DNA from: Aureimonas sp. AU20
GTDB taxonomy: Bacteria > Pseudomonadota > Alphaproteobacteria > Rhizobiales > Rhizobiaceae
NCBI RefSeq assembly: GCF_001442755.1
Contig: NZ_CP006368.1
Span: 248,001-312,000 of the forward strand
DNA length: 64,000 bases
Direction of reading: 5' to 3'
The notes under the pieces are model-generated. The model ran no database searches. It had not been told where the DNA came from and worked only from the letters and a program-made list of their open reading frames with translations. Both the position numbers and the translations under genes were made by a program. Positions 6,503-35,636 of this stretch are shown here, one piece after another (position 1 is the first letter of the stretch; every line of letters begins with the position of its first letter).

Positions 6503-7051
6503 ATGACACTCGTTTCCCAGACATTCACCGCGCGGGCGCCCGGCCTCGTGTCCCTCGGCGGCGCGGTTCCCGCACCGGTGCTGAAGGACGCCATGCGCCA
6601 TCTCGCCGGCGGCGTGTCGGTGGTGACGGCTGGAACCGGCGACGAGCGCACGGGCGCGACGGTAACCACCGCCCATTCGCTCTCGGTCGATCCCGAAACC
6701 ATGATCGTCTCGATCAACCTGTCATCCTCCACCTGGCCGGTGATCCGGCGCTTCGGCCATTACTGCGTCAATCTCCTGGCGCAGCGGCAGCAGCCCATCG
6801 CCGACCGCTTCGCCGGGCGCGGCGGCGTGAAGGGCCGGGAGCGCTATCTCGGCGCGGACTGGACCGTCCTGGAAACAGGGGCGGGCGTCCTGGTGGGCGC
6901 GGTCGCCTCGGTGGACTGCGAGGTCGAGGAGATCATCGAGCGGCACAGCCACGCACTGATTCTGGGCACGGTGCGTGCCGTCGCCGTCTCGGGCGGCGAG
7001 CCGCTGGTCTACAGCCATGGCCGCTACGGCCGCGTCGCGCCCGGCGAGTGA
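6503..7051 (+). CDS. Flavin reductase-like domain protein (FMN reductase partner)
   Basis: A 182-residue split-barrel flavin reductase of the HpaC/DszD-like group. The start of the domain reads [18 protein letters not shown], followed by [21 protein letters not shown] and the [11 protein letters not shown] loop; the C-terminal part holds [10 protein letters not shown] and the final YSHGRYGRV. Such proteins reduce FMN with NAD(P)H and hand it to two-component monooxygenases. It is the first gene of the plus-strand operon, 44 bases before ssuD, so it most likely serves SsuD and perhaps also the divergent NtaA-type enzyme. It is not an SsuE-type flavodoxin-like reductase, so the pairing with SsuD is by context. 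Confidence 0.88.
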
Positions 7052-7095
7052 CGCGCCCGCGCCGCCTCCCTTTCCCGTTTGCCGAAAGCCCCACC

Positions 7096-8271
7096 ATGCC
7101 ATTCGAGACGCCCGACAAGATCAACGTCCTCTGGTTCCTGCCGACCCATGGCGACAGCCGCTATCTCGGCACGAGCGAGGGCGGCCGCGCGGTGGACCTT
7201 CCCTATCTCCGGCAGGTGGCGCAGGCGGCCGACCAGCTCGGCTATTACGGCGTGCTTCTGCCGACGGGTCGTTCCTGCGAGGATTCCTGGGTGGTCGCCT
7301 CGGCGCTGGCGCCGCTGACGGAGAAGCTGCGCTTTCTCGTGGCCGTGCGCCCCGGCCTTCAGTCGCCGACGCTCGCCGCGCGCATGACCGCGACGCTCGA
7401 CCGCATCTCCGGCGGCCGGCTCCTCATCAACGTCGTGACGGGCGGCGATCCGCAGGAGAACAAAGGCGACGGCATCTTCCTCAGCCATTCCGAGCGCTAC
7501 GAGGTGACGCGCGAGTTCCTGGAAATCTACAAGCGCGTCCTGTCCGGCGAGACCGTCGCGCACCAGGGTAAGCACTTCACGATCGAGGACGGGCGGCTTC
7601 TTTTCCCGCCGGTGCAGGCGCCCTATCCCCCGCTCTACTTCGGCGGCTCGTCGGAAGCGGCCAACGAGGTCGCGGCCGGCGAGATCGACAAATATCTGAC
7701 CTGGGGCGAGCCGCCGGCGCTTGTGGCCGAGAAGCTGGACACGGTTCGCGCGCTCGCCGAGAAGCGCGGCCGCAAGCTCTCCTTCGGCATCCGCCTTCAT
7801 GTCATCGTGCGCGAAACGAACGAGAAGGCTTGGGAAGCGGCGGACGAGCTCATCAGCCGACTCGACGACACCACGATCGCCGAGGCGCAGAAGGTCTTCG
7901 CGCGTATGGATTCGGTCGGCCAGTCGCGCATGAGCCAGTTGCACGGCGGCCGGCGCGACAAGCTGGAGGTGAGCCCCAATCTTTGGGCCGGCGTCGGTCT
8001 GGTGCGCGGCGGCGCCGGGACGGCGCTGGTGGGCGATCCCGATACGGTGGCCGAGCGGATCGACGAGTATCGACGCCTGGGCATCGACACGTTCATCCTG
8101 TCGGGCTACCCGCATCTGGAGGAGGCCTATCGCTTCGGCGAGCTGGTTCTGCCGCGCCTGCCGCTGGCTCATGCCGTCCCTTCGCGCCAGGCGAGCGTCA
8201 ACACCGGGCCTTTCGGTGAGAGCATTGCCGGCGACCGCCGCCCGCAAGCCCGGCTCGCCAGCCAGTCGTGA
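7096..8271 (+). CDS. ssuD: Alkanesulfonate monooxygenase (FMNH2-dependent)
   Basis: A 391-residue luciferase-like enzyme that releases sulfite from alkanesulfonates using reduced FMN and oxygen. Recognisable SsuD stretches are [20 protein letters not shown] near the N-terminus, the active-site segment [31 protein letters not shown], and [20 protein letters not shown] near the C-terminus. The length agrees with SsuD plus a short tail. The frame is open far upstream, but the ATG at 7096 gives the family N-terminus. MsuD (methanesulfonate) is a close alternative. The stop overlaps the next gene by four bases, indicating cotranscription with the flavin reductase and the FAD/NAD(P)-binding protein. 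Confidence 0.93.
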
Positions 8272-9725
8272 CGCGAAGCCCGGACTCCTCGCCGACCCTT
8301 GCCATCGTCGGCGGGGGCTTTTCGGGCGCGGCGCTCGCCTACCATCTGGCGCGGCGGGCGGATGCCGCGCATTGGCGCATCACTGTGGTCGAGCCGCGCG
8401 CCGTGCTCGGCGCGGGCCTTGCCTATTCCACGGGCGAGTCGACGCATCGCATCAACGTGCCGGCCGGGCGCATGAGCCTCGACACGGGCGATCCAGGCGC
8501 CTTCGAGCGCTGGCTGGAGGCCTCTGGCGCGATGGCGGGCGACGGCGAGGCCAAGGACGAACAGGGCCGGCCCTTTCCGCAGCGCGGCCTGTTCGGCCGC
8601 TATGTCCACGACCAATTGGTGCCCATGCTCCGCGCGGGGCGGATCGTCCACCACCGCGCGTGGGCCGAGCGCATTGAGCGGCGCCCCGAGGGCGGCTTCC
8701 GCGTCGCGCTGAGCGATGGCGCCGAGCTTGCTGCCGACGTCGTGGCGCTCGCCTGCACCCATCCGCTTCCCGCCGTCCCCTCCGCCCTGCGCCCCATCGC
8801 TCTTGCGCCCGGCTTTCTGGCCGATCCCTACGATGCCGACGCGCTGGCGAACGTTGCGCTCGGCGCGCGGGTTCTCGTGGTCGGCAACGGACTGACGGCG
8901 GCCGACGTGGTCGTGACGCTCGACCGGCTCGGCCATCGCGGGCCGATCGTCACGCTCTCGCGCGGCGGCCTTCGCTCGCGCGGCCACGCGCCGATGGCCC
9001 TCGAGCCGCGCGGCGAGTTTCTCGACCCGCCGGCACGAAGCGCTCTGGCGCTGCTGCGTCGCATCCGGCGCGAAATCGGCGAGGCCGCTCGCGACGGCGT
9101 GCCCTGGCAGGCCGTGATCGACGCCGTGCGCGGACAGGGCCAGTCCCTCTGGCAGGCGCTGCCCGAGAGCGAGCGGGCGCGGCTCGTGCGCCATCTGCGC
9201 AGCGTCTGGGACGTGCATCGGTTTCGCATTGCGCCGCAGGTTGAGGCGAGGCTTGACCGGCTGGAGGGGCAAGGCCGCCTCCAGCGTCTCGCCGCCTCGC
9301 TTCAGGGTTCGGTGATCACGCACGAAGGGCTGGCGCTGCGTTGGCGGCGGCGTCACCGGGCCGAGGTCGAGACCCATGTCTTCGATATCGTGGTCAACAC
9401 GACGGGTCCGGCCCATCGAACGATCGTCGATCAGGCCCCCGCCGCCTCGCTTCATGCCGCCGGCCTTGTCCGCCTCGACCGGGTCGGCCTCGGGCTTTCC
9501 ACCGCACCGGACGGGCGGGCGCTGGACAAGGACGACGCGCCTGTGCCCGGCCTCTACATCGCCGGCCCGCTGGCGCGCGGTACGTTCGGCGAGCTGATGG
9601 GCCTGCCGCAGGTGACCGCCTATGCCGAGGATCTGGCGGCCGAACTGGTTCGGGCAGTCGGGCGCCCGGCGGCCGACGGCGACACGGCCCCGTTCGATCC
9701 CGCCGCGCTGCGCCGCACGGCCTGA
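8268..9725 (+). CDS. FAD/NAD(P)-binding protein (NAD_binding_9-like)
   Basis: A 485-residue protein starting at a GTG that overlaps the ssuD stop (GTGA). The N-terminal Rossmann motif [20 protein letters not shown], then [16 protein letters not shown] in the middle and a late [16 protein letters not shown] show a two-dinucleotide-domain flavoprotein related to the NAD_binding_9 group of amine-oxidase-like proteins. The catalysed reaction is not known for this group; its fixed place behind ssuD suggests a redox role in organosulfur use (inference). No signal peptide or membrane segment is seen. Confidence 0.75.
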
Positions 9726-21960: not shown

Positions 21961-22740
21961 TCAACTCGTGGAGAGACGGGCGAGGGCTGCGAGGATCATG
22001 CGCTCGGAGCGGACGAGATAGCGCTCCATGGCGCGGCTCGCCTCTTCGGGCCGGCCCGCTTCCAGCTCGGCCAGGATCGACGCGTTCATCTCGATATAGG
22101 GGGCGTGCAAGCGCTCGGGATCGTCGAGCTGGCCGAAGCAAAGGCGCAGTTCGGCGGCGACCTGCGCGTAGAAGGACGACAGGCGCTGGCTGTCGGCCAG
22201 ATCCACCACGGCGGCGTGAAAGCGCATATTGGCGCTGCCGACGCCTTGCCAGTCGGCCTCGGCATGGCGCGCCCGCGCCTCGGCCACGGCCTCGGCCATG
22301 CGCGCGGCGGCGGGGTGGCCGGGATAGGCCTGGGCCAGGGCCTGGCATTCCAGCATCCGGCGCACGCGATAGATGTCGAGGATCGAGGCGGCAGAGGGCA
22401 CCGAAACGAAGACGCCGCGATTGGGCTCGTGGTGCAGCAGCCCTTCCTTGGTGAGGAGGCGGAACACCTCGCGCAGCGTGTTGCGCGACACGGCGAGATC
22501 GCCTGCCAGCGCCGTTTCGGACAGGCGCTGGCCGGGCAGAAGCTCGCCCGCGATGATGCGGTCGCGCAGCGCCTCGGCGATGCGCGCCGTCAGCGCCAGC
22601 GGATTGGCAACGACGGCGCTCAATCGGAAAGGCCGCGCCCAGAGCTGGCCCAAGCGGTCTTGGTCGTTCGCGCCGGCATCCCCGCTCCTTGGCCCGTGTC
22701 TCGAATCGTCGCGGACCATCGGCCAAGCCGGGGCCGACAT
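21961..22740 (-). CDS. GntR-family (FadR-type) transcriptional regulator
   Basis: A 259-residue regulator. The winged helix-turn-helix (about residues 45-105) includes LRDRIIAGELLPGQRLSETA and AVSRNTLREVFRLLTKEGLL; the rest is an all-helical FCD-type effector domain with the arginine/histidine pattern ANMRFHAAVVDLADSQRL. The ATG at 22740 has GAGG four bases upstream; a second ATG at 22719 has none. Transcribed away from the NRAMP-like/pxp operon and facing the amidase operon end (13-base gap). Inverted repeats in the 220-base gap upstream make it the likely regulator of the 22965-29175 operon and of itself (inference). Confidence 0.87.
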   Translation of the reverse strand: MSAPAWPMVRDDSRHGPRSGDAGANDQDRLGQLWARPFRLSAVVANPLALTARIAEALRDRIIAGELLPGQRLSETALAGDLAVSRNTLREVFRLLTKEGLLHHEPNRGVFVSVPSAASILDIYRVRRMLECQALAQAYPGHPAAARMAEAVAEARARHAEADWQGVGSANMRFHAAVVDLADSQRLSSFYAQVAAELRLCFGQLDDPERLHAPYIEMNASILAELEAGRPEEASRAMERYLVRSERMILAALARLSTS

Positions 22741-22844
22741 CAAGCCTCGCGCGCACTCTGGGCGCAGGCGCAGGGCGGACTTTGCGCAAGAGCCGCGCAG
22801 GACGTTGCTCGCTTGTTGGACATGTTGCCGACGTTCTGCACAAA

Positions 22845-22863
22845 TTGCAGGACAGTCATGCAA
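22845..22863. promoter_or_regulatory. Candidate GntR operator 1
   Basis: Inverted repeat TTGCA (22845-22849) / TGCAA (22859-22863) with a 9-base spacer in the gap between the divergent GntR gene and the NRAMP-like gene, 102 bases before the latter. Confidence 0.4.
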
Positions 22864-22869
22864 AAATCG

Positions 22870-22896
22870 TTGAACAATATTGACCTTGTCGTTCAA
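22870..22896. promoter_or_regulatory. Candidate GntR operator 2 / promoter region
   Basis: Inverted repeat TTGAAC (22870-22875) / GTTCAA (22891-22896) around an AT-rich 15-base spacer that also contains ATATTGACC. It lies 69 bases before the NRAMP-like start. Together with operator 1 it forms two stacked sites suited to autoregulated divergent control. Confidence 0.4.
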
Positions 22897-22964
22897 TCGT
22901 CGGAAGCTGTCACCGCAATTCGGCCCCAATCCTCCGGCGCGCGCCGCCCCATGGGAGCATGACG

Positions 22965-24233
22965 ATGGATCCAGTTCCTTCCCCCCGGCCGGCCGTGCCG
23001 GCCGCGTCCTCGACCTTCGGGCGGGGCAACGAGTCCAAGCGCTTCGCCCTGGTCTCGGCGGTCTTCCTGATGGCGACCGCCGCCAGCGGACCGGGCTTCA
23101 TCACCCAGACCGCGACCTTCACCCAGACCATGGGCGCGGCCTTCGCCTTCGGCATTCTGGCCTCGGTGATCATCGACTACATCGTCCAGATCAACATCTG
23201 GCGCATCGTCGCCGCCACGCGCATGCGCGCCTCCGACATCGCCAACGCGGCGATCCCCGGCTCGGGCTATCTCCTGGCCTTCCTCGTCATCCTGGGCGGG
23301 TTGTTCTTCAACATCGCCAATGTCGCCGGCGCCGGCCTCGGCCTCAACGCGCTGGTCGGGCTCGACCCCAAGATCGGCGGTGCGCTCTCGGCGCTGCTGG
23401 CGATCGGCATCTTCCTCAACAAGCGCGCCGGCGGGGTCATGGACCGCACCATGATCGCGCTCGGTGTCATCAAGATCGCACTGATCCTGTTCGTCGCCTA
23501 TTCCGCCAGCCCGCCGGTCGGCGAGGCGCTGCGCCAGACCGTCTGGCCCGACACGATCGACTTCCCCACGATCACCACGATCGTCGGCGGCACGGTCGGC
23601 GGCTATCTCACCTATGCCGGCGCCCACCGCCTTCTCGACAAGGGGCTGGTCGGCAAGGAGAATATCCCCTCCGTCACCAAGGCCGCGCTGAACGGCATCA
23701 CGGTGACAGGCATCATGCGCTTCATCCTGTTCCTCGGCATTCTCGGCGTCGTGTCGTCAGGCGTCACGCTGGACCTGTCGGGCCGCACCGCCAACCCCGC
23801 CGCCCAGGCCTTCGGCCATGCCGTCGGCGAGTTCGGCTTCCGCGTCTTCGGCTTGATCTTCTGGGCCGCCGGCATGAGCTCGATCATCGGCGCGGCCTAT
23901 ACGTCGGTCTCGTTCATGACCGCCTTCAAGACCGGCATGAGCGATCGCGCCCGGTCCTACGCCACCGTCGTCTTCATCTCCGTGTCGCTCGCCATCTTCC
24001 TGCTCATCGGCACCACGCCCGCCGCGCTTCTCGTCTTCGTCGGCGGCTTCAACGGGCTTGTCCTGCCGATCGGCCTCACCATCATCCTCTACGCTGCCTG
24101 GGCGCGGCGGGATCTGATGTGCGACTATCGCCATCCCATCTGGCTCTTCGGCCTCGGCGTCGCCACCGCCGCCTTGACCTGGTGGATGGGCTATCGCTCC
24201 ATCGGCCCGATCTTCGCCTTCCTCAGCCGCTGA
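22965..24233 (+). CDS. NRAMP-superfamily transporter lacking metal-binding motifs (YcsG-like)
   Basis: A 422-residue membrane protein with about eleven hydrophobic segments. It resembles YcsG of Bacillus subtilis, which also sits with ycsF, ycsI, kipI and kipA. TM1 reads [17 protein letters not shown]: the GPGF turn of NRAMP is kept, but the metal-ligand DPGN is absent. The TM6 region ([20 protein letters not shown]) lacks the Met-containing MPHN ligand motif. The protein therefore probably does not move Mn/Fe; given its operon it may import 5-oxoproline or a related acid (inference). Start: ATG at 22965 has GGGAG at 7-base spacing; the ATG at 22959 is too close to it. Confidence 0.8.
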
Positions 24234-24255: not shown

Positions 24256-25026
24256 ATGTCCGCCATCGACCTCAACAGCGATCTCGGCGAAAGCTACGGC
24301 GCCTGGGCCATGGGCGACGACGCGGCGATGCTCTCCATCGTGTCCAGCGCCAACATCGCCTGCGGCTTCCATGCCGGCGATCCTGCCGGCCTGCTTCGCA
24401 CCTTGCGCGAGGCGGCCGAGCGGGGCGTCAGGGTCGGCGCCCATGTCTCCTATCCCGATCGCGTCGGCTTCGGCCGGCGCGACATGGACGTGGCGCACGA
24501 GGATCTCTTGGCCGACGTCGTCTACCAGATCGGCGCGCTGCAGGGGCTGGCCCGCGCCGCCGGCACCTCGGTCACCTACGTCAAGCCGCATGGCGCGCTC
24601 TACAACCGCATCGCCGGCGACGCGCGCCAGGGGCGGGCGGTGATCGAAGGGATCAAGCTCGCCGACCCCGCGCTGGTCCTGATGGGGCTCGCCGGTGCGC
24701 CGATCCTCACGCAGGCCCGCGAGGCGGGGCTGGCGACCGTGGCCGAGGCCTTCGCCGACCGCGCCTATACGCCGGAGGGCACGTTGGTCTCGCGCCGCGA
24801 GCCGGGCGCGGTGATCCACGATCCCGAAACGGTCGCCCGCCGCATGGTGCAACTCGCTCAGTCCGGCACGCTGGAGGCCATCGACGGCTCCACCGTGCGC
24901 CTCACCGCGCAGTCGATCTGCGTTCATGGGGACAGTCCTGGCGCGGTCGCCATCGCGCGCGCCGTGCGCGAGGCCTTCGAGGCTTCCTCCATCGCCGTGC
25001 GGCCTTTCACGGGAGAGCGGGCATGA
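24256..25026 (+). CDS. pxpA: 5-oxoprolinase subunit A (LamB/YcsF family)
   Basis: A 256-residue TIM-barrel-like protein with the LamB/YcsF hallmarks [13 protein letters not shown] at the start, [40 protein letters not shown] and [11 protein letters not shown]. In E. coli, PxpA with PxpB and PxpC converts 5-oxoproline to glutamate with ATP. It starts 22 bases after the transporter gene and ends overlapping the next gene in ATGA. Full family length, no odd residues noticed. Confidence 0.93.
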
Positions 25027-25834: not shown

Positions 25835-27451
25835 ATGCGCATCCTGCCGGTCAGTCTTCGCGTGGTGCTGGTGGAGCTTGCCGATCTCGGCGAGACGCTG
25901 GCGCTTTTCGCCTCGCTCCAGGCCGAACCGCTGGCCGGCGTCGACGAGGTGCTGCCGGCGGCCCGCACGCTGATGATCCGCTTCCAACCCGAAATCCTCT
26001 CGCCCGAGGCGCTGACTGAAGCCCTGCGCGCGCGCGATCTGACCGCCCGGCCCGACCGCGGCGGCGCTCTGGTCGAGGTGCCGACGGTCTATGATGGCGA
26101 GGATCTCGGCGAGGTGGCGGCGCTGACCGGGCTTTCCGTCGAGGAGGTGATTCGGCGCCACGCGGCCTCCGAGTTCACGGTCGCCTTTTCCGGCTTCGCG
26201 CCGGGCTTCGGCTATCTCGTCGGCGGCGACGAGGCGTTGCACGTGCCGCGTCGGCAGAGCCCGCGCACGCGCATTCCGGCGGGCTCGGTGGCGCTGGCCG
26301 GACCGTTCAGCGGAGTCTACCCGCAGCCGAGCCCCGGCGGCTGGCAGCTCATCGGCACGACGCCGGTGCCGATGTGGGATCTCGCCCGCACCCCGCCGGC
26401 CTTGTTCCAGCCGGGAGACCGGGTGCGCTTCGTCCCCATCGCGCCGGTCGAGGCCGAGCGGCTTCGCGAGGAGGCCGCGGCCACCGCGCCCGCGGCGGAG
26501 GCGCAGGCGCGGGCAGGGGGCTTGGCCGTTCTCGCCGCGGCCATGCCCGCCTTGTTTCAGGATCGCGGCCGCTTCGGCGAAACGCGCCAGGGCGTTTCGG
26601 CCTCCGGCGCGCTGGACGGCGGCGCTATGCGCGCGGCCAACCGCTTGGTCGGCAACCGGACCGACGCACCGGTGCTGGAGATCACCGGCGGCGGCTTTCG
26701 GCTGGAAGCGCGCGAGAGCGCCGTGGTGGCGATCGCCGGCGCGCCCGCGCCGCTGTCGCTGATCGACGCGGCTGGGCGCAATGTCCCGGCCGAGACGTGG
26801 CATACGCTGGCCCTGGAGCCCGGCGATAGGCTGGAGATCGCCGCGCCCAAGGCCGGCGTGCGGACCTATTTGGCGCTGCGCGGCGGCTTCGCCGTCGAGC
26901 CCGTTCTCGGCAGCGCCAGCACGGACACGCTCGCCCATGTCGGCCCGCCGGTGGTGACGGCGGGGGCCGTGCTGCGCGCCGACCCGGTCGCGCGCACGAT
27001 CGTCGGCGCGGTGACCCCCGCGCTCGAAGCACCCTTCCTTTGCCCGGCGCGCGGCGAGACCGTGGTGCTCGACGTCGTGATGGGGCCGCGCACGGACTGG
27101 TTCACCGACGAGGCCGTCGCGCTCCTGGCGTCTCAGGTCTTTGAGGTCACGCCGCAGTCGAACCGCGTTGGCATCCGGTTGGAGGGCGCCGTCCCGCTCT
27201 CCAAGCGTGAGGGGATGGGTGAGCTGCCAAGCGAGGGCACGGCGACCGGCGCGATCCAGGTGCCCCATAGCGGCCAGCCCGTCCTGTTCCTGGCCGACCA
27301 TCCGTTGACCGGCGGCTATCCCGTGATCGCGACGGTCGCCGAATACCATCTCGACCTCGCGGGCCAGATTCCGGTTCATGCCCGCATCCGCTTCCGTCCG
27401 ATCCGCCCCTTCGCCGAGATCGCGCCTCTCGCTCACGAGACCACGCCATGA
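25835..27451 (+). CDS. Fused PxpB-PxpC (KipI-KipA) 5-oxoprolinase / carboxyltransferase-like protein
   Basis: One 538-residue chain joins two proteins that are separate in E. coli and B. subtilis. Residues 1-205 are KipI/PxpB ([46 protein letters not shown]). After an Ala/Glu-rich linker (206-228) comes KipA/PxpC ([31 protein letters not shown], the late [14 protein letters not shown]). Both halves are homologous to the carboxyltransferase part of urea carboxylase. With pxpA upstream it may act as 5-oxoprolinase; with the biotin carboxylase-carrier protein directly downstream (ATGA overlap) it may act as its carboxyltransferase. The ATG at 25835 is preceded by GAGAG; the frame is open upstream inside ycsI. 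Confidence 0.9.
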
Positions 27452-29175
27452 AAAAAGTCCTCATCGCCAATCGCGGCGAGATCGCCCTTCGCATCGTCCG
27501 TGCCTGCCGCGACGCCGGGCTCGGCTCGGTCGCCGTCTATGCCGACGCGGATGCCGACGCGCCCTTCGCCCGCGCCGCCGACGAGGCCTATGCGCTGGGC
27601 GGCGACAAGCCGGCCGACACCTATCTCGACGGCGTGAAACTCGTCGCGATCGCCTTGAAGGCCGGCGCCGACGCCGTCCATCCCGGCTACGGCTTCCTCT
27701 CGGAGCGGGCGGATTTCGCCAAAGCCGTGATCGACGCCGGCCTCACCTGGATCGGCCCCGACCCGGCGGTGATCGAGGCGCTGGGCGATAAGGTCGAGGC
27801 GCGGCGCATCGCCGAGCGCGTCGGCGCGCCGCTGGTGGCCGGCACGGACGGCCCGGCCGCCTCCGCCGAGGAGGTTCTGGCCTTCGCCCGCGAGCACGGG
27901 CTCCCCATCGCCATCAAGGCCGCCTTCGGCGGTGGCGGGCGCGGGCTGAAGGTCGCCTGGGAGATGGACGAGGTGGCCGAGCTCTTCGAGTCGGCCGTGC
28001 GCGAGGCGACCAGCGCCTTCGGGCGCGGCGAGTGCTTCGTGGAGCGCTTCATCGACCGGCCGCGCCATGTGGAAGCGCAGGTCCTGGCCGACCGGCACGG
28101 CCATGTCGCCGTGCTCGGCACGCGCGACTGCTCGCTCCAGCGGCGAAACCAGAAGCTGGTGGAAGAAGCGCCCGCGCCCTTCCTCACCGACGAGCAGCGC
28201 GCCCGCATCCACGAATCCGCCCGCGCCATCTGCGCGGAGGCCGGCTATACCGGCGCGGGAACGGTGGAGTTCCTGCTCGGTCGCGACGGGATCATCTCCT
28301 TCCTCGAGGTCAACACGCGGTTGCAGGTCGAGCATCCCGTGACCGAGGAGACGACGGGCATCGACCTCGTGCGCGAGCAATTCCGCATCGCCGACGGCCT
28401 TCCTTTGTCCTTTTCGGAGGTTCCGGCGCCGCGCGGCCATTCCATCGAGTTCCGCATCAACGCAGAGGACCCCGCGCGCGGCTTCCTGCCGACGCCGGGG
28501 GAGGTGACGCGTTTCGACCCGCCTTCCGGCCCCGGCATCCGGCTCGATAGCGGTGTCATCGCCGGCTCGCGCGTTCACCCCGCCTTCGACTCCATGCTGG
28601 CCAAGCTGATCGTGACCGGCGCGACGCGCGAGGAGGCGCTCGCCCGCGCGCGCCGGGCCTTGGGCGAGTTCGCGATCGAGGGCGTCGCCACGGTGCTGCC
28701 GTTCCACCGCGCGGTTCTCGATGCGCCGGCCTTCACAGCGGAAGACGGTTTCGGCGTTCACACGCGCTGGATCGAGACGGAATTCGCCGACACGCTGGCC
28801 GAGCAGGCGCGGCCCGCGCCGCTCGGCGAGGCGCCCATGCTGCGCCTACCGGTCGAGATCGACGGACGCCGCGTCCTGCTCGGCCTGCCGGCCGCCTTCG
28901 CCGCAGGCTTCAACCCGCTTGCCGCGCCCGCGCAAGCCCCGGCACCGAGTGCCGTGGCTGATCCCGGCGCTGTCGCGGCGCCCGTCGCCGGAACGCTGCA
29001 GGCCTGGCGCTTCTCGGACGGCGACGCGGTGGAGCCAGGCGCGATCCTCGTCACGATGGAAGCCATGAAGATGGAAACCAACGTGACGGCGCCGCATGCG
29101 GGCCGCCTGCGCATCCTCTCCAAGGACGGATATCAGGAGGTTGGCGCGGTTCTGGCGCGGATCGAGCCCGCCTGA
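27448..29175 (+). CDS. Biotin carboxylase with fused biotin carboxyl carrier domain
   Basis: A 575-residue protein. Residues 1-445 are an AccC-type biotin carboxylase: [23 protein letters not shown]-grasp loop [13 protein letters not shown], and [18 protein letters not shown] with the catalytic Glu/Arg. A Pro/Ala-rich linker (about 485-505) leads to a lipoyl/biotinyl domain with EAMKMET, Lys541 being the predicted biotin site. It resembles the alpha subunits of acyl-CoA carboxylases, but no carboxyltransferase beta gene is nearby. The only adjacent carboxyltransferase-like gene is the fused pxpBC whose stop it overlaps, so it probably carboxylates a small amide/lactam, as in urea carboxylase (inference). 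Last gene of the operon; a strong hairpin follows. Confidence 0.9.
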
Positions 29176-30741: not shown

Positions 30742-31809
30742 ATGTTTCTGCGAAACGCCTGGTATGTCGCGGCCTGGGATCACGAAGTCGCCGAGGGGCT
30801 GATGCCCGTCCGCGTGCTGGGCGAAAACATCGTCCTTTATCGCCGCCGCGACGGCGCGGTCGCCGCGCTGGAGGATGCCTGTCCGCATCGCAAGCTCCCC
30901 CTCTCCATGGGCCGCATCAAGGGCGACGATGTCGAGTGCGGCTATCACGGCCTCACCTTCGACGGCACGGGCACCTGCACCCGCGTTCCCGGCGCCGAGC
31001 GCATTCCGCATGTGGCGCGCGTTCGCGCCTACCCCATCCACGAGCGCTACGGCCTGCTCTGGATCTGGATGGGCGAGGCGGAAAAGGCCGACCCGGCCGA
31101 GATTTTCGCTGTGGAACACTGGGGCGACCCGGCCTGGGGCATCAATCGCGGCGAGTCCATGACGCTTGCCTGCAACTATCTCTACATGACCGACAATCTC
31201 CTGGACCCCTCGCATGTCGCCTGGGTCCACCAGAGCTCCTTCGCCAGCTCGGCCTGCGAGGAGACGCCGCTGGAAACGACGGTCGCGCCGAACGGCGTCA
31301 CGGTCTGGCGCTGGATGATCGATTCCGAGCCGGCGCCCTTCTACGCGCCCTTCCTGAAATTCAGCGGCCATTGCGACCGCAAGCAGCACTACGAGGTGCG
31401 CTATCCCTCGAACGCCATCATCAAGGCGATCTTCGTGCCGGCCAACAGCTATCGCGAGGGCGAGCCGCTGCACGAGGACGTGTTCCTGATGGACAGCTAC
31501 AATTTCATGACGCCGGTCGACGAAGGTCACACCAAATATTACTGGTTCCAAATGCGAAACTTCGCGCCGGACGACGCCGAGGTTTCCGCCCGCTTCGCCA
31601 AGTCGGTGCGCGGCGCCTTCGAGGAGGACCGCGTCGTTCTGGAGGCGGTCGACTATGGCATGGCCAACAAGCAGACGCCCAATCTCGATCTCAAGATCGA
31701 TGTCGGCCCCTTGCGCTTCCGCCGCCGGATGCAGCAGCTGATCGAGGCCGAGCGGGCGGCACTCGCCTCCAATGCACCTCCCGCCCCCGCTTCCGTCGCG
31801 GCCGAATGA
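30742..31809 (+). CDS. Rieske non-heme iron oxygenase, VanA-like
   Basis: A 355-residue oxygenase subunit of the vanillate O-demethylase type. Rieske [2Fe-2S] ligands are Cys47-x-His49 (ACPHRKLPLS) and Cys66-x2-His69 (ECGYHGL). Mononuclear iron site: NLLDPSHVAWVH with His158 and His163. The N-terminus MFLRNAWYVAAWDHEV and the overall length fit VanA rather than ring-dihydroxylating alpha subunits. These enzymes demethylate or hydroxylate aromatic or N-methyl compounds. The partner reductase overlaps in ATGA. Substrate unknown; the aminotransferase and dehydrogenase downstream hint at an amino-acid-like compound (inference). Confidence 0.9.
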   Translation: MFLRNAWYVAAWDHEVAEGLMPVRVLGENIVLYRRRDGAVAALEDACPHRKLPLSMGRIKGDDVECGYHGLTFDGTGTCTRVPGAERIPHVARVRAYPIHERYGLLWIWMGEAEKADPAEIFAVEHWGDPAWGINRGESMTLACNYLYMTDNLLDPSHVAWVHQSSFASSACEETPLETTVAPNGVTVWRWMIDSEPAPFYAPFLKFSGHCDRKQHYEVRYPSNAIIKAIFVPANSYREGEPLHEDVFLMDSYNFMTPVDEGHTKYYWFQMRNFAPDDAEVSARFAKSVRGAFEEDRVVLEAVDYGMANKQTPNLDLKIDVGPLRFRRRMQQLIEAERAALASNAPPAPASVAAE

Positions 31810-32918
31810 GCGAGGCCCCCTTGGCCGCCCCCGCCGGCTTCCGGCGTCTGCGCCTGCTGGACGCCCGGCGCGAGAGCGCGGCCATCACCTCGTATTTCTT
31901 GGAGCCGGTGGACCCCGGCGGCTGGGCGCCCTTCGCGCCGGGGCAGTTCCTCGTGTTCCGCCTGCCCGACGCCGCCTCTCCAGGCGGCTGGGCCTTGCGC
32001 AACTATTCCATCTCCGGCCCCTCGGACGGGCGAACCTACCGCATCTCCGTGAAACGCGAGCCTTGCGCGCGCGGGGCGGACGGCGCGGGCCTGGGGTCGG
32101 GCCATTTCCACCATCGCCTTCGGCCCGGCGACGAGGTCTGGGCGAGCGCGCCGCGCGGCGAGTTCGTGCTGGACGAGACGAGCGGACGCGCCGTCCTTCT
32201 CCTGTCGGGCGGCGTCGGGATCACGCCTCTGCTGGCGATGCTGCACCATCTGACCGAGCGATCCGACCGGCCCGTGCATTTCGTCCATGCCTGCGAGGAC
32301 GGGCGCAACCATGCGCTGGCCGACGAGGTGGAGGCGCTGGCGGCCGCGCGCGCCGGCATAAGCGCCCATTTCGTCTACCGCGCGCCGACGGCGGAGGACG
32401 AGGCGCGCGGCCGTCATGTCGCCTCGGGCCTCGTGACGCGCGCGCTTCTCCGGTCGCTCCTGCCGTTGGACGATTACGACGTCTATCTCTGCGGGCCGAC
32501 GCCCTTCATGCAGGCGCAGTATGCGACGCTGCTGGGCCTCGGCGTCCGGCCGGAGCGGATCGCCACCGAGTTCTTCGGCCCCGCCTCGCTGCTCGGCGCG
32601 GCCCCTGCCCCGGCCCCCGTCGCGCCCGCTCCGGTCGCGCCGGAACCCGCCTCCGCCGGCGAAGGGCCGCTCGTGTCCTTTGCCCGCTCCGGCGGCGCGA
32701 CGGTCTGGCGCGAGGGCGCGGGCTCGCTTCTGGAACTGGCGGAAGGCGCCGGCCTCTCGCCCGCCTTCAGCTGCCGCTCGGGCGTCTGCATGACCTGCAG
32801 CGCCGCGCTCCTGTCGGGCGAGGTCGAGTACACCGAGGAGCCGTTGGACGAGCCCGCGCCCGGCCAGGTTCTTCTCTGCTGCACACGGCCGCGCGGCGAC
32901 GTCACGCTGGACATCTGA
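31806..32918 (+). CDS. FAD/2Fe-2S oxygenase reductase, VanB-like
   Basis: A 370-residue reductase that passes electrons from NAD(P)H through flavin and a plant-type [2Fe-2S] centre to the Rieske oxygenase. N-terminal ferredoxin-reductase domain with ALRNYSISG (flavin) and LLSGGVGITPLLAM (nicotinamide). A Pro/Ala linker (about 263-285) leads to the ferredoxin domain with Cys323, Cys328, Cys331 and a fourth Cys at 358 or 359 (LLCCTRP). The linker is longer than in typical VanB, and the protein is about 50 residues longer. Starts in an ATGA overlap with the oxygenase gene. Confidence 0.88.
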   Translation: MSEAPLAAPAGFRRLRLLDARRESAAITSYFLEPVDPGGWAPFAPGQFLVFRLPDAASPGGWALRNYSISGPSDGRTYRISVKREPCARGADGAGLGSGHFHHRLRPGDEVWASAPRGEFVLDETSGRAVLLLSGGVGITPLLAMLHHLTERSDRPVHFVHACEDGRNHALADEVEALAAARAGISAHFVYRAPTAEDEARGRHVASGLVTRALLRSLLPLDDYDVYLCGPTPFMQAQYATLLGLGVRPERIATEFFGPASLLGAAPAPAPVAPAPVAPEPASAGEGPLVSFARSGGATVWREGAGSLLELAEGAGLSPAFSCRSGVCMTCSAALLSGEVEYTEEPLDEPAPGQVLLCCTRPRGDVTLDI

Positions 32919-33078
32919 GCATCCGTCCCGAGACCCGAGCGGGTAGAGCCTCGACGCCGCGCCCTCGCATCAAGCCATCGACGCCTCGCCCGCGACAGGA
33001 GGTCCCGCAAGAGGTCCCCACCGCCGAGGGCTTGAGCAGACGCGTCCCCTGCCCTTCCCGAACCGATCGGAGTCCTTC

Positions 33079-34203
33079 TTGAGCGAGTTTCCGCAACCTG
33101 CCGCCGAGGCCCCGCTTCAGCTCAACCCGCATGTGGCGGCCCTGCCGGCCTATAATGCGGGACTCAGCCTTGCGGCCGCGCGCCAGGCCAGCGGGCGGGA
33201 GGACATCGCGCGGCTGGCCAGCAACGAGAATCCCGACGGCTGCTCGCCGCGCGTTCTGGAAGCGCTCGCGGGCTACGATCCCTCGCGCTACGCCGACCCG
33301 GCCTGCAACGCCCTGCGCGGGGCGCTGGGTGCCTTTCTGGACGAAGAGCCCGACCGCATCGTCTGCGGCAACGGCTCGGAAGAGATGATCGCCGCCCTTT
33401 CGCGCGCGGCGCTGCAACCGGGGCGCGAGGTGCTGACCGTCGCGCCGAGCTTCGGCCTGCACGAGATCGAGCCGCTGGCGGCCGGCGCGCGGGTGCGCAA
33501 GATCGCCATGCGCCCCGATTTCGGCTTCGACCTCGACGCCCTGGCGGCGGCGCTGGCGCGCGGGCCGGCGCTCGCCTTCCTTTCCTCGCCCTGGAACCCG
33601 GTCGGCCCCGCGCTGGACGAGGCCGCGCTGACGCGGCTGGCCGAGTCGGCGCGCGGGCGCGGCACGCTCTTCGTGCTGGACGAGGCCTATTTCGAATATG
33701 GCGGCGACGCGCTGCCGGACGCGCGGCGCATTCTCTCACGCGCCGGCCTGCCCTTCGCGATCCTGCGCACCTTTTCCAAGGCCTATGGGCTGGCGGGCCT
33801 GCGCGTCGGCTATGCCATCGCCTCCAGTGCGGCGCTCGCCCGCGCCATCGCGGCGGCCAAGACGCCGTTCAACGTCAACGGCGCGGCGCAGATCGCGGCC
33901 CTTGCCGCATTGGCGGACCAGGACTGGATGCGCGCCTCCGTCCGCCGCCTGGAAGCGCGCCGCGCGGCGCTGGCGCAAGGGCTGGAAGCGGCCGGTTTTC
34001 GCACGGCTCCGTCCCACACCAACTTCCTGTTCGTGGACTGCGGCGGCGACAGCGCCTCGGCGTCGTCGGCGCTTCTGGCGGACGGTATCATCGTCAAACC
34101 CTGGCGCGAGCCCGGCTTCGAGCGCTATCTGCGCGTGACGATCGGCACGCCGGCCGATAATGAGCGCTTTCTCCGCGCCCTCATCCGTTGGAGCCAGACC
34201 TGA
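33079..34203 (+). CDS. HisC-like class I/II PLP aminotransferase
   Basis: A 374-residue fold-type I aminotransferase of the histidinol-phosphate/CobC group. The start is a TTG with GGAG seven bases upstream. Marks: ARLASNENPDGCSPRVLEAL near the N-terminus, Asp201-Glu-Ala-Tyr in LFVLDEAYFEYGG, and Schiff-base Lys234 in TFSKAYGLAGLRVGY. The usual NPNNPTG loop reads SPWNPVG, so substrate binding may differ from HisC. No other his genes are near; the next gene overlaps by one base and encodes an FAD-linked dehydrogenase, so it probably acts in a catabolic pathway with the Rieske oxygenase. Confidence 0.85.
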   Translation: MSEFPQPAAEAPLQLNPHVAALPAYNAGLSLAAARQASGREDIARLASNENPDGCSPRVLEALAGYDPSRYADPACNALRGALGAFLDEEPDRIVCGNGSEEMIAALSRAALQPGREVLTVAPSFGLHEIEPLAAGARVRKIAMRPDFGFDLDALAAALARGPALAFLSSPWNPVGPALDEAALTRLAESARGRGTLFVLDEAYFEYGGDALPDARRILSRAGLPFAILRTFSKAYGLAGLRVGYAIASSAALARAIAAAKTPFNVNGAAQIAALAALADQDWMRASVRRLEARRAALAQGLEAAGFRTAPSHTNFLFVDCGGDSASASSALLADGIIVKPWREPGFERYLRVTIGTPADNERFLRALIRWSQT

Positions 34204-35636
34204 TGCCAGACCGGACGCCAGACCCGATCATCGCAGCCGCCCCGGCCCTTCCCGCCGGTTTCGAGAATCGGCTGCGCGCCCTGCTCGGCCCCGCCCATGT
34301 GCGAACGGGCGAGGCGCTGGCCGCGATCGACCCCGGCTGGAACAAGGACAATCTGAAAAGCGGCTGCCTCGCCCTGCCCGGCTCGACCGAGGAGGTCGCG
34401 GCCGTTGTGCGCCTCTGCCGTGAGGCGGGCGTCGCCATCGTGCCGCAGGGCGGGCGTACGGGCCTTGTCGGCGGCTCGGTCTCGGCGCCGGGGCAACTCG
34501 TCGTCTCCACCGCAAGGCTCAACGCCGTGGAGCGGCTCGACCCGATCGAGCGCACCGTCACGGTGGGCTCGGGCGCCACGCTGCAATCGGTGCAGGAGGC
34601 CGCCGCCGCTCATGGGCTGGAGCCCGGCATCGACCTGCCCTCGCGCGGCACGGCAACCATCGGCGGCATGATCTCCACCAATGCCGGGGGCATCATGGCC
34701 TTCCGCAACGGCGTCATGCGCCACCGCGTCTTCGGGCTGGAAGCGGTGATGCCGGACGGAACCGTGATGAGCGATCTGACCCGCGTGGTGAAGACCGCCG
34801 CCGGCTACGATCTCAAGCATCTCCTGATCGGCGGCGAGGGCACGCTCGGTATCGTCACTCGCGCCGTCCTGAAGCTCGACCCGCTGCCGGAGGCGAGCGC
34901 CACGGCGCTGTTCGGCCTGCCCTCGGTGGAGGCGGTGCTGGAGGTGATCCGCCTCGCGCTGGCGCTTCCGGGCGTCGCCCTGCGCGGCGCGGAGGCCATG
35001 TGGAAGCCCTTTCTCGACCACACGGCGGGTGCGCTCGGCTGGGAGAGCGAGGCGATCGACCGCACCGCGCCGGTCTATCTCCTCCTGTCGATCGGCGGCG
35101 CCGAGGGCGGCCCCCTTCCGGCCGCGTTCGAGACCCTGTTCGAGACGGTGGTGGAGCGCTTTCCCGAGGCGTCGGGCCTCATCGCCCAGTCCCTGCGGCA
35201 GGAGCGCGATCTCTGGCGCCTGCGTGAGGACACCGACCTCGTCTACCACACCTATCCCGCCGCCCCGTCCTTCGACGTGTCGCTGCCGCAGTCGGAAATT
35301 CCGGCCTATCTCGATCGGCTCCTGCCCGAGCTGAAGGCGATCGACCAAGGCTTTGCGCCCTTCGTCTTCGGCCATCTAGCGGACGGAAATTTGCATCTGA
35401 TCCTGAACCGCCCCGGCCCGCTGGAGCCCGACCTCATGGCGAAGGTCGAACATGCGCTCTATCGCGACGTCAGCCAGCGCGGCGGCTCCTTCTCGGCCGA
35501 GCACGGCGTCGGCACCAAGCGCATCGGCCCGATGGAGGCGACCGCCGACCCCGGCAAGCTCGCCTTCATGCGGGTCCTGAAATCTAGCCTCGATCCGGCC
35601 GGGCTGATGAACCCGGGCGTCGTCATCCGTCGCTGA
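34203..35636 (+). CDS. FAD-linked 2-hydroxyacid dehydrogenase (GlcD/D2HGDH-like)
   Basis: A 477-residue oxidoreductase of the vanillyl-alcohol oxidase/PCMH fold. FAD-binding segment VAIVPQGGRTGLVGGSV, TIGGMISTNAGGIMAFRNG and GGEGTLGIVTRAVLKLDP, and C-terminal metal-site and end motifs FGHLADGNLHLIL and EHGVGTKRIG with LDPAGLMNPG. The set fits D-2-hydroxyglutarate, D-lactate or glycolate dehydrogenases, which oxidise a 2-hydroxyacid to a 2-oxoacid. Begins at ATG overlapping the aminotransferase stop by one base (TGATG); together they could interconvert an amino acid, 2-oxoacid and 2-hydroxyacid. Confidence 0.9.
   Translation: MPDRTPDPIIAAAPALPAGFENRLRALLGPAHVRTGEALAAIDPGWNKDNLKSGCLALPGSTEEVAAVVRLCREAGVAIVPQGGRTGLVGGSVSAPGQLVVSTARLNAVERLDPIERTVTVGSGATLQSVQEAAAAHGLEPGIDLPSRGTATIGGMISTNAGGIMAFRNGVMRHRVFGLEAVMPDGTVMSDLTRVVKTAAGYDLKHLLIGGEGTLGIVTRAVLKLDPLPEASATALFGLPSVEAVLEVIRLALALPGVALRGAEAMWKPFLDHTAGALGWESEAIDRTAPVYLLLSIGGAEGGPLPAAFETLFETVVERFPEASGLIAQSLRQERDLWRLREDTDLVYHTYPAAPSFDVSLPQSEIPAYLDRLLPELKAIDQGFAPFVFGHLADGNLHLILNRPGPLEPDLMAKVEHALYRDVSQRGGSFSAEHGVGTKRIGPMEATADPGKLAFMRVLKSSLDPAGLMNPGVVIRR

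Follow-up and report, generated by a model that had tools for sequence, protein, structure and literature searches.

Introduction

The closest described relatives of the system reported here are the PxpABC 5-oxoprolinases of Escherichia coli, Bacillus subtilis and Corynebacterium glutamicum. PxpB and PxpC have a carboxyltransferase fold, and that they activate 5-oxoproline by phosphorylation is an assumption (PMC13274462). Here we describe an operon in a 64,000-nt stretch of the Aureimonas sp. AU20 genome (NCBI RefSeq assembly GCF_001442755.1, contig NZ_CP006368.1, positions 248,001 to 312,000; hereafter the window) that joins homologues of PxpA, PxpB and PxpC to a biotin carboxylase (BC) fused with a biotin carboxyl carrier protein (BCCP). 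From gene order, domains, motifs, adjacency tested in both directions, tree positions and a conserved operator, we consider it likely that the operon encodes a split biotin-dependent 5-oxoprolinase.

The likeness to the PxpABC systems lies in the three Pxp homologues standing together (Pfam matches above cut-off) and, for the pxpR-pxpTABC locus of C. glutamicum, in the GntR regulator, a PxpR-type operator and an Nramp-family transporter. In C. glutamicum, the gene for the GntR-type regulator PxpR lies divergent to pxpTABC; the protein binds 5-oxoproline with a dissociation constant (KD) of 726 nM, and its operator sequence is printed in PMC13274462. The window differs from the known 5-oxoprolinases in its fused PxpB-PxpC, its dedicated BC-BCCP of AccA3 type and its YcsI gene; pxpBCA of E. 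coli MG1655 has no BC neighbour within the 12 kb examined. Of the NCBIfam models for PxpB and PxpC, TIGR00724 scored 231.3 (cut-off 230.2), TIGR00370 (PxpB) 139.8 (cut-off 145.55) and NF045499 (PxpC) 169.2 (cut-off 500).

A second relative is urea carboxylase/urea amidolyase (Kluyveromyces lactis KlUA; PDB 3va7 and 5i8i), which shares the CT_A_B plus CT_C_D carboxyltransferase fold. An earlier note on this DNA had stated the homology of PxpB and PxpC to the carboxyltransferase part of urea carboxylase, and the CT_C_D and CT_A_B domains and the fold agree with it. Whereas urea carboxylase is one chain with CT_A_B followed by CT_C_D, the window has two polypeptides (157.9 and 493.7 bits with TIGR02712, cut-off 1303.85) and the order PxpB-PxpC. 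Lys1605 of KlUA is replaced by Arg139, the BC of urea carboxylase groups weakly with MccA/PccA whereas that of the window is of AccA3 type, and PxpA stands in place of allophanate hydrolase.

Pxp genes do occur beside BC and carrier genes in a six-gene operon of Staphylococcus aureus (pxpB, pxpC, pxpA, accB, accC), in which, unlike in the window, accC and accB are separate and whose accBC genes PMC11315280 files under fatty-acid synthesis. Neighbouring UCT-like genes without a known function were described by Lombard and Moreira, who considered that these could act together with other BCs (PMC3199775). We found no description of a biotin-dependent PxpABC or 5-oxoprolinase in the literature searched, which left subscription journals mostly uncovered.

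Results and Discussion

The fusion and the BC-BCCP occur together in both directions

The earlier note had seen a KipI-KipA (PxpB-PxpC) fusion overlapping a BC gene by ATGA, and a carrier domain with a biotin-type lysine; both observations hold, the fusion ending at 27451 and the BC-BCCP starting at 27448, with the lysine of EAMKM at residue 541. We asked how general this arrangement is by searching 299 genomes of the phylum with PF02626. Matches were found in 102 genomes, and 100 loci were kept once open frames over 1,100 amino acids (urea carboxylases) and three fragments (one in G070, two in G379) had been left out. A same-strand BC lay within 4 kb at 24 of the 100 PxpC-type loci, which exceeds the roughly 0.6% expected by chance (six BC genes in 5.2 Mb). 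A fused BC-BCCP was the neighbour of every fused PxpBC in this sample (12/12). The reverse search of the same genomes with the BC-BCCP (E 1e-130 or better, four candidates scored per genome) gave 13 full-length matches with at least 63% identity, the window included, and 13/13 were directly beside a PF02626 gene; the remaining matches listed had at most 52% identity, and none extended past residue 480. The adjacency of fusion and BC that the earlier note had proposed looking for in other genomes is thus conserved.

Loci of the window's own kind are called type I below, a set of 45 made up of named, class-sample and phylum-sample loci plus the window; these are not independent species samples, and the 80 named loci of the survey are the best-scoring ones rather than a random draw. 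The gap between the two genes, taken up to the codon at which the BC profile match begins, was −4 nt at 22 of the 45 loci and at most 50 nt at 38. Distance matrices of the two proteins correlated with r 0.86 over 44 type I loci, a value uncorrected for common descent. A few assignments need qualification. L063 was scripted as type I only through a urea carboxylase gene within 4 kb, L049 (broken reading frames) and L051 were given label II by the script, L124 was counted as lacking a BC because its BC and carrier genes are on the other strand, and the BC of L129 is truncated by the contig end.

The 13/13 adjacency, the several BC lineages found beside the family, the title of PDB entry 9yx5 and the lack of a free classic carboxyltransferase (see below) together indicate that the pairing of fusion and BC-BCCP, as carboxyltransferase and biotin-charging protein, looks real. 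The proposal of the earlier note that the two polypeptides reconstitute one enzyme stands in this respect; its wider choice of substrates is narrowed to 5-oxoproline, urea and guanidine being less likely.

All classic carboxyltransferases of the genome already have another BC as partner

If the BC-BCCP served instead as alpha subunit in a conventional acyl-CoA carboxylase, its beta subunit would have to be encoded elsewhere, as AccA3 serves several AccD subunits in mycobacteria (PMC11001197). The earlier note had named such a partner as what would refute its proposal, and we looked for one. The Aureimonas genome has six BC genes, four PF01039 matches and two CT_A_B genes. All four PF01039 matches lie outside the window, in agreement with the earlier statement that the operon lacks an AccD/PccB-type gene, and each is paired with another BC: PccA/PccB and MccA/MccB each lie within 4 kb of one another, and AccC serves AccA/AccD. 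One further BC sits in a frame of pyruvate-carboxylase length; the names AccC, AccA, AccD and pyruvate carboxylase are our assumption, based on frame length. The two BC genes left over, that of the window and one other, each adjoin one of the two CT_A_B genes. BT domains in PccA (PCC_BT 77.5 bits) and MccA (BT_MCC_alpha 33.4 bits) confirm these two names, and with the two proteins as positive controls, Pfam gave no BT match in the window BC-BCCP or in an AccA3-type protein. Thus the window enzyme differs from classic carboxylases of the PCC/MCC type in having neither a PF01039 partner nor a BT domain between BC and carrier.

Eleven other genomes have a type I BC-BCCP, and the same inventory covered all of these but G150, which has two type I copies. 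In three of the ten (G146, G153 and G397), the PF01039 matches were all of AccA/AccD size and none was full length. The remaining seven do have full-length matches, and each of these shares a frame with another BC or lies no more than about 4.5 kb from one; the exception is a match in the draft genome G299, whose partner BC is likely on a different contig. Three of the ten (G293, G310 and G339) have a half-size PF01039 match in addition to the AccA/AccD pair, which favours the acyl-CoA reading, and G397 has one below the cut-off. In G293 and G339, one extra BC of the size of AccC (467 and 469 amino acids) is also left unpaired and is perhaps part of a two-subunit pyruvate carboxylase. Apart from the G299 case, we detected no free full-length classic carboxyltransferase in the 11 genomes, and none of the 13 full-length relatives of the BC-BCCP was found away from PxpBC. 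We therefore regard an acyl-CoA carboxylase alpha subunit as a highly improbable identity for the BC-BCCP.

The BC-BCCP belongs with actinobacterial AccA3

By sequence, the window protein is an AccA3-type subunit like those of Actinobacteria. Its best PDB matches were 5mlk (E 2.8e-219) and the AccA3 chain of 30hu (E 5.2e-218), followed by a match at 8.9e-136. In the BC tree, type I and AccA3-type proteins formed one clade (support 0.939) apart from AccC, with inner nodes at 0.16–0.46. The catalytic motifs, with residue roles taken from E. coli BC, are kept in the window and, with conservative changes, in type I rows. In the PxpB+PxpC tree (203 rows), the window falls in a type I clade (0.999) of 42 rows with a type I BC, three without a linked BC and one with broken frames. 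This clade is nested in a larger branch with actinobacterial sequences (1.0), among the latter the Mycobacterium smegmatis chains of 3mml, which are 42% identical to the window. Several nodes inside the larger branch are weak (0.0–0.4). Since node order is weak in both trees, derivation from Actinobacteria is only something we infer.

All 13 actinobacterial genomes examined that have a related PxpBC lacking a BC neighbour encode an AccA3-type BC elsewhere, meaning outside the 8-kb flanks, which hold no BC. Identity was 62–68%, and 12 of the matches were full length, the one in G408 (L055) spanning residues 2–484 only. In 15 control genomes with other PxpBC branches, of which 11 had a match at E 1e-120, identity was at most 51%. 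For the AccA3-type protein of the L220 genome, the match to AccA3 of 30hu/9yx5 has an E value of 0. The title of 9yx5 describes an M. smegmatis long-chain acyl-CoA carboxylase complex "with MSMEG_0435-MSMEG_0436 bound" (PxpC/PxpB), and its chains are named AccA3, AccD4, AccD5 and MSMEG_0435/0436; our literature search found no paper on the entry. It resembles the window in that PxpC/PxpB, here from the actinobacterial group adjoining type I, share one solved assembly with an AccA3-type BC-BCCP, and differs in that this BC-BCCP is shared and AccD4/AccD5 are present, whereas the window BC-BCCP is dedicated and lies in the operon.

As a side observation, the protein comparison of PMC11001197 gives MSMEG_0435 a value of −2.4, compared with −295 for PII itself; PxpC may be linked to nitrogen control.

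Several BC lineages accompany the family, and the active site is not diagnostic

BC adjacency required 10 Fitch changes on the tree, urea carboxylases being counted as having a BC, compared with at least 49 in 500 shuffles. Three BC lineages are found beside the family: AccA3-type at type I loci, AccC-like at most type II loci as well as at L157, L164, L179 and L152, and the BC of urea carboxylase. Several lineages in several branches are otherwise hard to explain, which argues that carboxybiotin is commonly used by this carboxyltransferase family. Further cases of PxpBC with BC/BCCP and an AccC-like BC, belonging neither to type I nor to the urea-carboxylase clade, were seen at L157, L164 and L179, at L152 and at L085, although the tree place of the L085 BC is unsupported.

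It is also conceivable that PxpA and the fusion form an ordinary phosphorylating 5-oxoprolinase that needs no biotin, the BC-BCCP being a mere companion or a regulatory binder, and the observations that weigh against a biotin mechanism belong here. PxpB and PxpC are assumed to phosphorylate 5-oxoproline in published work (PMC13274462). In the phylum sample, 76 of the 100 PxpC-type loci have no adjoining BC. Three fusions inside the type I clade (L044, L045 and L047) have no linked BC, the best BC-BCCP relative in their genomes is only 48% identical, and the operator described below is absent there at one mismatch; these fusions may use another BC or none. Arg139 aligns with the lysine base of urea carboxylase (KlUA Lys1605), and arginine occupies this site in 97% of 120 unfused relatives without a BC neighbour, so that the active site as read is no proof of carboxyl transfer. 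The evidence from 9yx5 consists of its title and chain names. Because AccA3 is general in Actinobacteria, its presence in actinobacterial genomes alone shows nothing. On the other side are the 13/13 adjacency, the urea-carboxylase carboxyltransferase fold and the distinct BC lineages in several branches, which mere company explains poorly, and we judge the biotin-independent reading quite unlikely.

The Lys/Arg site failed as a marker of biotin users, arginine being found in type I and BC-less relatives alike. The structure model had a predicted local distance difference test (pLDDT) score of 71.4, which is medium, and was low around 139–169; for this reason we make no active-site claim from it.

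Our survey also turned up a second cluster in the Aureimonas genome (L013:5832-10083; G000:C4, about 283.8–288.1 kb) with PxpA, a 90-amino-acid BCCP (EVMKS), an AccC-like BC, PxpB and PxpC, followed by a branched-chain-type ABC transporter and flanked by a divergent LysR gene. The Lys-Tyr pair of urea carboxylase is present in its PxpB, which also falls into one group with that enzyme (0.999), and for these two reasons this cluster may be a truer split urea-carboxylase-like enzyme, with another substrate. Genome G081 contains four PxpC-type paralogues in the Lys-Tyr clade (L099, L107, L111 and L112); L111 has Leu instead of Lys, and L107 alone has BC and BCCP adjoining. In Microbacterium sp. 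CSI-V, a full urea carboxylase gene lies about 2.7 kb from a PxpBC fusion (L063:310-3960 and 6657-8864).

A probable PxpR-type operator points to 5-oxoproline

The window contains a site with one mismatch to the 13-bp core of the C. glutamicum PxpR operator, at an expectation of 0.13 sites per window for two mismatches or fewer. With at most one mismatch, the core was found at 35 of the 45 type I loci (25 of them exact), compared with 2 of 155 others; these counts accept a site anywhere in the fetched stretch (for the window, 16 kb around the operon), and as the core was chosen after the window had been seen, the count without the window is 34/44. The site lies within 700 bp of the operon at 22 loci, and 22/22 also have a homologue of the window GntR regulator. 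Such homologues were near 28 of the 45 type I loci, and at 22 of these the operator was nearby as well. L063 was put in the fused group without BC for the GntR-homologue and 35/45 counts and kept as type I in the 700-bp count. Judging from the conserved PxpR-type operator and the nearby GntR homologues, 5-oxoproline is most likely the compound to which type I operons respond.

A real split carboxylase might nonetheless act on another lactam, on D-5-oxoproline or on a urea-like compound. Another lactam and a urea-like compound were among the alternatives of the earlier note, the operon contains a D-Glu_cyclase/YcsI gene, and with a related second cluster in the same genome, the two clusters may differ in substrate. 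What speaks for 5-oxoproline is the PxpR-like regulator with its operator in most type I loci (35/45) and the binding of 5-oxoproline by C. glutamicum PxpR (KD 726 nM, PMC13274462). For urea or guanidine in particular, the fusion lies outside the urea-carboxylase clade and has Arg139 in place of the lysine base, which with the PxpR-like gene and operator makes these substrates less likely than 5-oxoproline. Overall, a substrate other than L-5-oxoproline seems unlikely.

Proposed mechanism

The dedicated biotin-charging subunit suggests that the ring is opened by way of biotin-bound CO2 rather than phosphorylation. The BC-BCCP would carboxylate the biotin on Lys541 using ATP and bicarbonate, and the PxpB-PxpC fusion would transfer the CO2 to the lactam of 5-oxoproline (N or O), giving an activated carboxy-lactam much as urea carboxylase makes allophanate. 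PxpA would then hydrolyse the activated ring, and the resulting N-carboxyglutamate would lose CO2 to yield L-glutamate. The net reaction would be 5-oxoproline + ATP → glutamate + ADP + Pi, CO2 being recycled in a catalytic role. The operon would be switched with 5-oxoproline by a PxpR-like repressor, and the Nramp-family protein would import 5-oxoproline or Mn2+, its role being disputed between 5-oxoproline uptake (PMC13274462) and Mn2+ import (PMC10448178). The gene set would be related to the actinobacterial PxpBC, whose genomes also contain an AccA3-type subunit, and the proteobacterial operons would carry their own. It is possible, and we put it forward tentatively, that the whole PxpBC branch including its actinobacterial members is biotin- and bicarbonate-dependent, PxpBC being the carboxyltransferase of a 5-oxoproline carboxylase that would draw on the shared AccA3-type subunit in Actinobacteria and on one of its own in Proteobacteria. 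In that case the published picture of PxpBC as a 5-oxoproline kinase would be wrong at least for the window's branch; it may be wrong for all PxpABC enzymes, whose hidden partner would then be housekeeping AccC/AccB.

With the operon, its own BC-BCCP and 9yx5, a biotin mechanism can be put to a direct test. If it is true, it would add a further use of the urea-carboxylase carboxyltransferase fold, explain BC genes without a beta subunit, correct the fatty-acid annotation of acc genes within pxp operons, and link 5-oxoproline turnover, nitrogen supply and biotin status.

Operon layout and genome setting

The operon runs from the Nramp-family gene through PxpA, D-Glu_cyclase/YcsI and the PxpB-PxpC fusion to the BC-BCCP, with the GntR/FCD gene divergent upstream (Table 1; open reading frames (ORFs) and Pfam). 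Since the GntR domain begins only at residue 114, the true start of the regulator is probably further in. In the fusion ORF, read from 25826, Pfam places CT_C_D at residues 4–194 (216 bits) and CT_A_B at 256–525 (273 bits); the BC-BCCP has Biotin_carb_N, CPSase_L_D2, Biotin_carb_C and Biotin_lipoyl domains.

Table 1. Features of the pxp operon and its regulator in the window.
Feature	Position	Strand	Basis
GntR/FCD regulator, PxpR-like	21961..22929	-	Longest ORF; Pfam GntR + FCD; divergent from operon
Probable PxpR-type operator, ATTGTTCAACGAT on - strand	22866..22878		One mismatch to C. glutamicum 13-bp core
Nramp-family transporter, PxpT/YcsG (MntG)-like	22959..24233	+	Pfam Nramp 69.5 bits
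PxpA (LamB/YcsF), 256 aa, predicted ring-opening hydrolase	24256..25026	+	Pfam LamB_YcsF 340 bits; NCBIfam NF003814 379.3, cut-off 226
YcsI/D-Glu_cyclase family protein, 266 aa	25023..25823	+	Pfam D-Glu_cyclase 220.8 bits; NCBIfam NF003969 402, cut-off 324
PxpB-PxpC fusion, 538 aa, probable carboxyltransferase of urea-carboxylase fold	25835..27451	+	ATG at 25835; Arg139 at KlUA Lys1605 place
BC-BCCP, AccA3 type, 575 aa, no BT domain	27448..29175	+	Start inside ATGA
Lys541 codon in EAMKM, predicted biotinylation site	29068..29070	+	.(A/V)MKM in 44/45 type I carriers

In the phylum sample, a YcsI gene was present at 5 of 12 fused loci versus 6 of 76 loci without BC. A D-Glu_cyclase family member could link D-glutamate to 5-oxoproline, and a mammalian relative acts on D-glutamate and 5-oxo-D-proline. 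The Aureimonas genome (G000) is 5.2 Mb and 99.99% complete, and the nearest other protein came from Aureimonas sp. AU40 (96% identity). No RNA family reached its gathering threshold within the window. At L049 (Ramlibacter terrae H242), whose genome record is complete, the Pxp and BC genes are each spread over several frames, perhaps through sequencing errors. Beyond the operon, at 30742-35633 of the window, the next cluster encodes a Rieske/VanA_C oxygenase with a reductase-like ORF, a class I/II aminotransferase and an FAD-linked oxidase, and is probably an unrelated catabolic operon.

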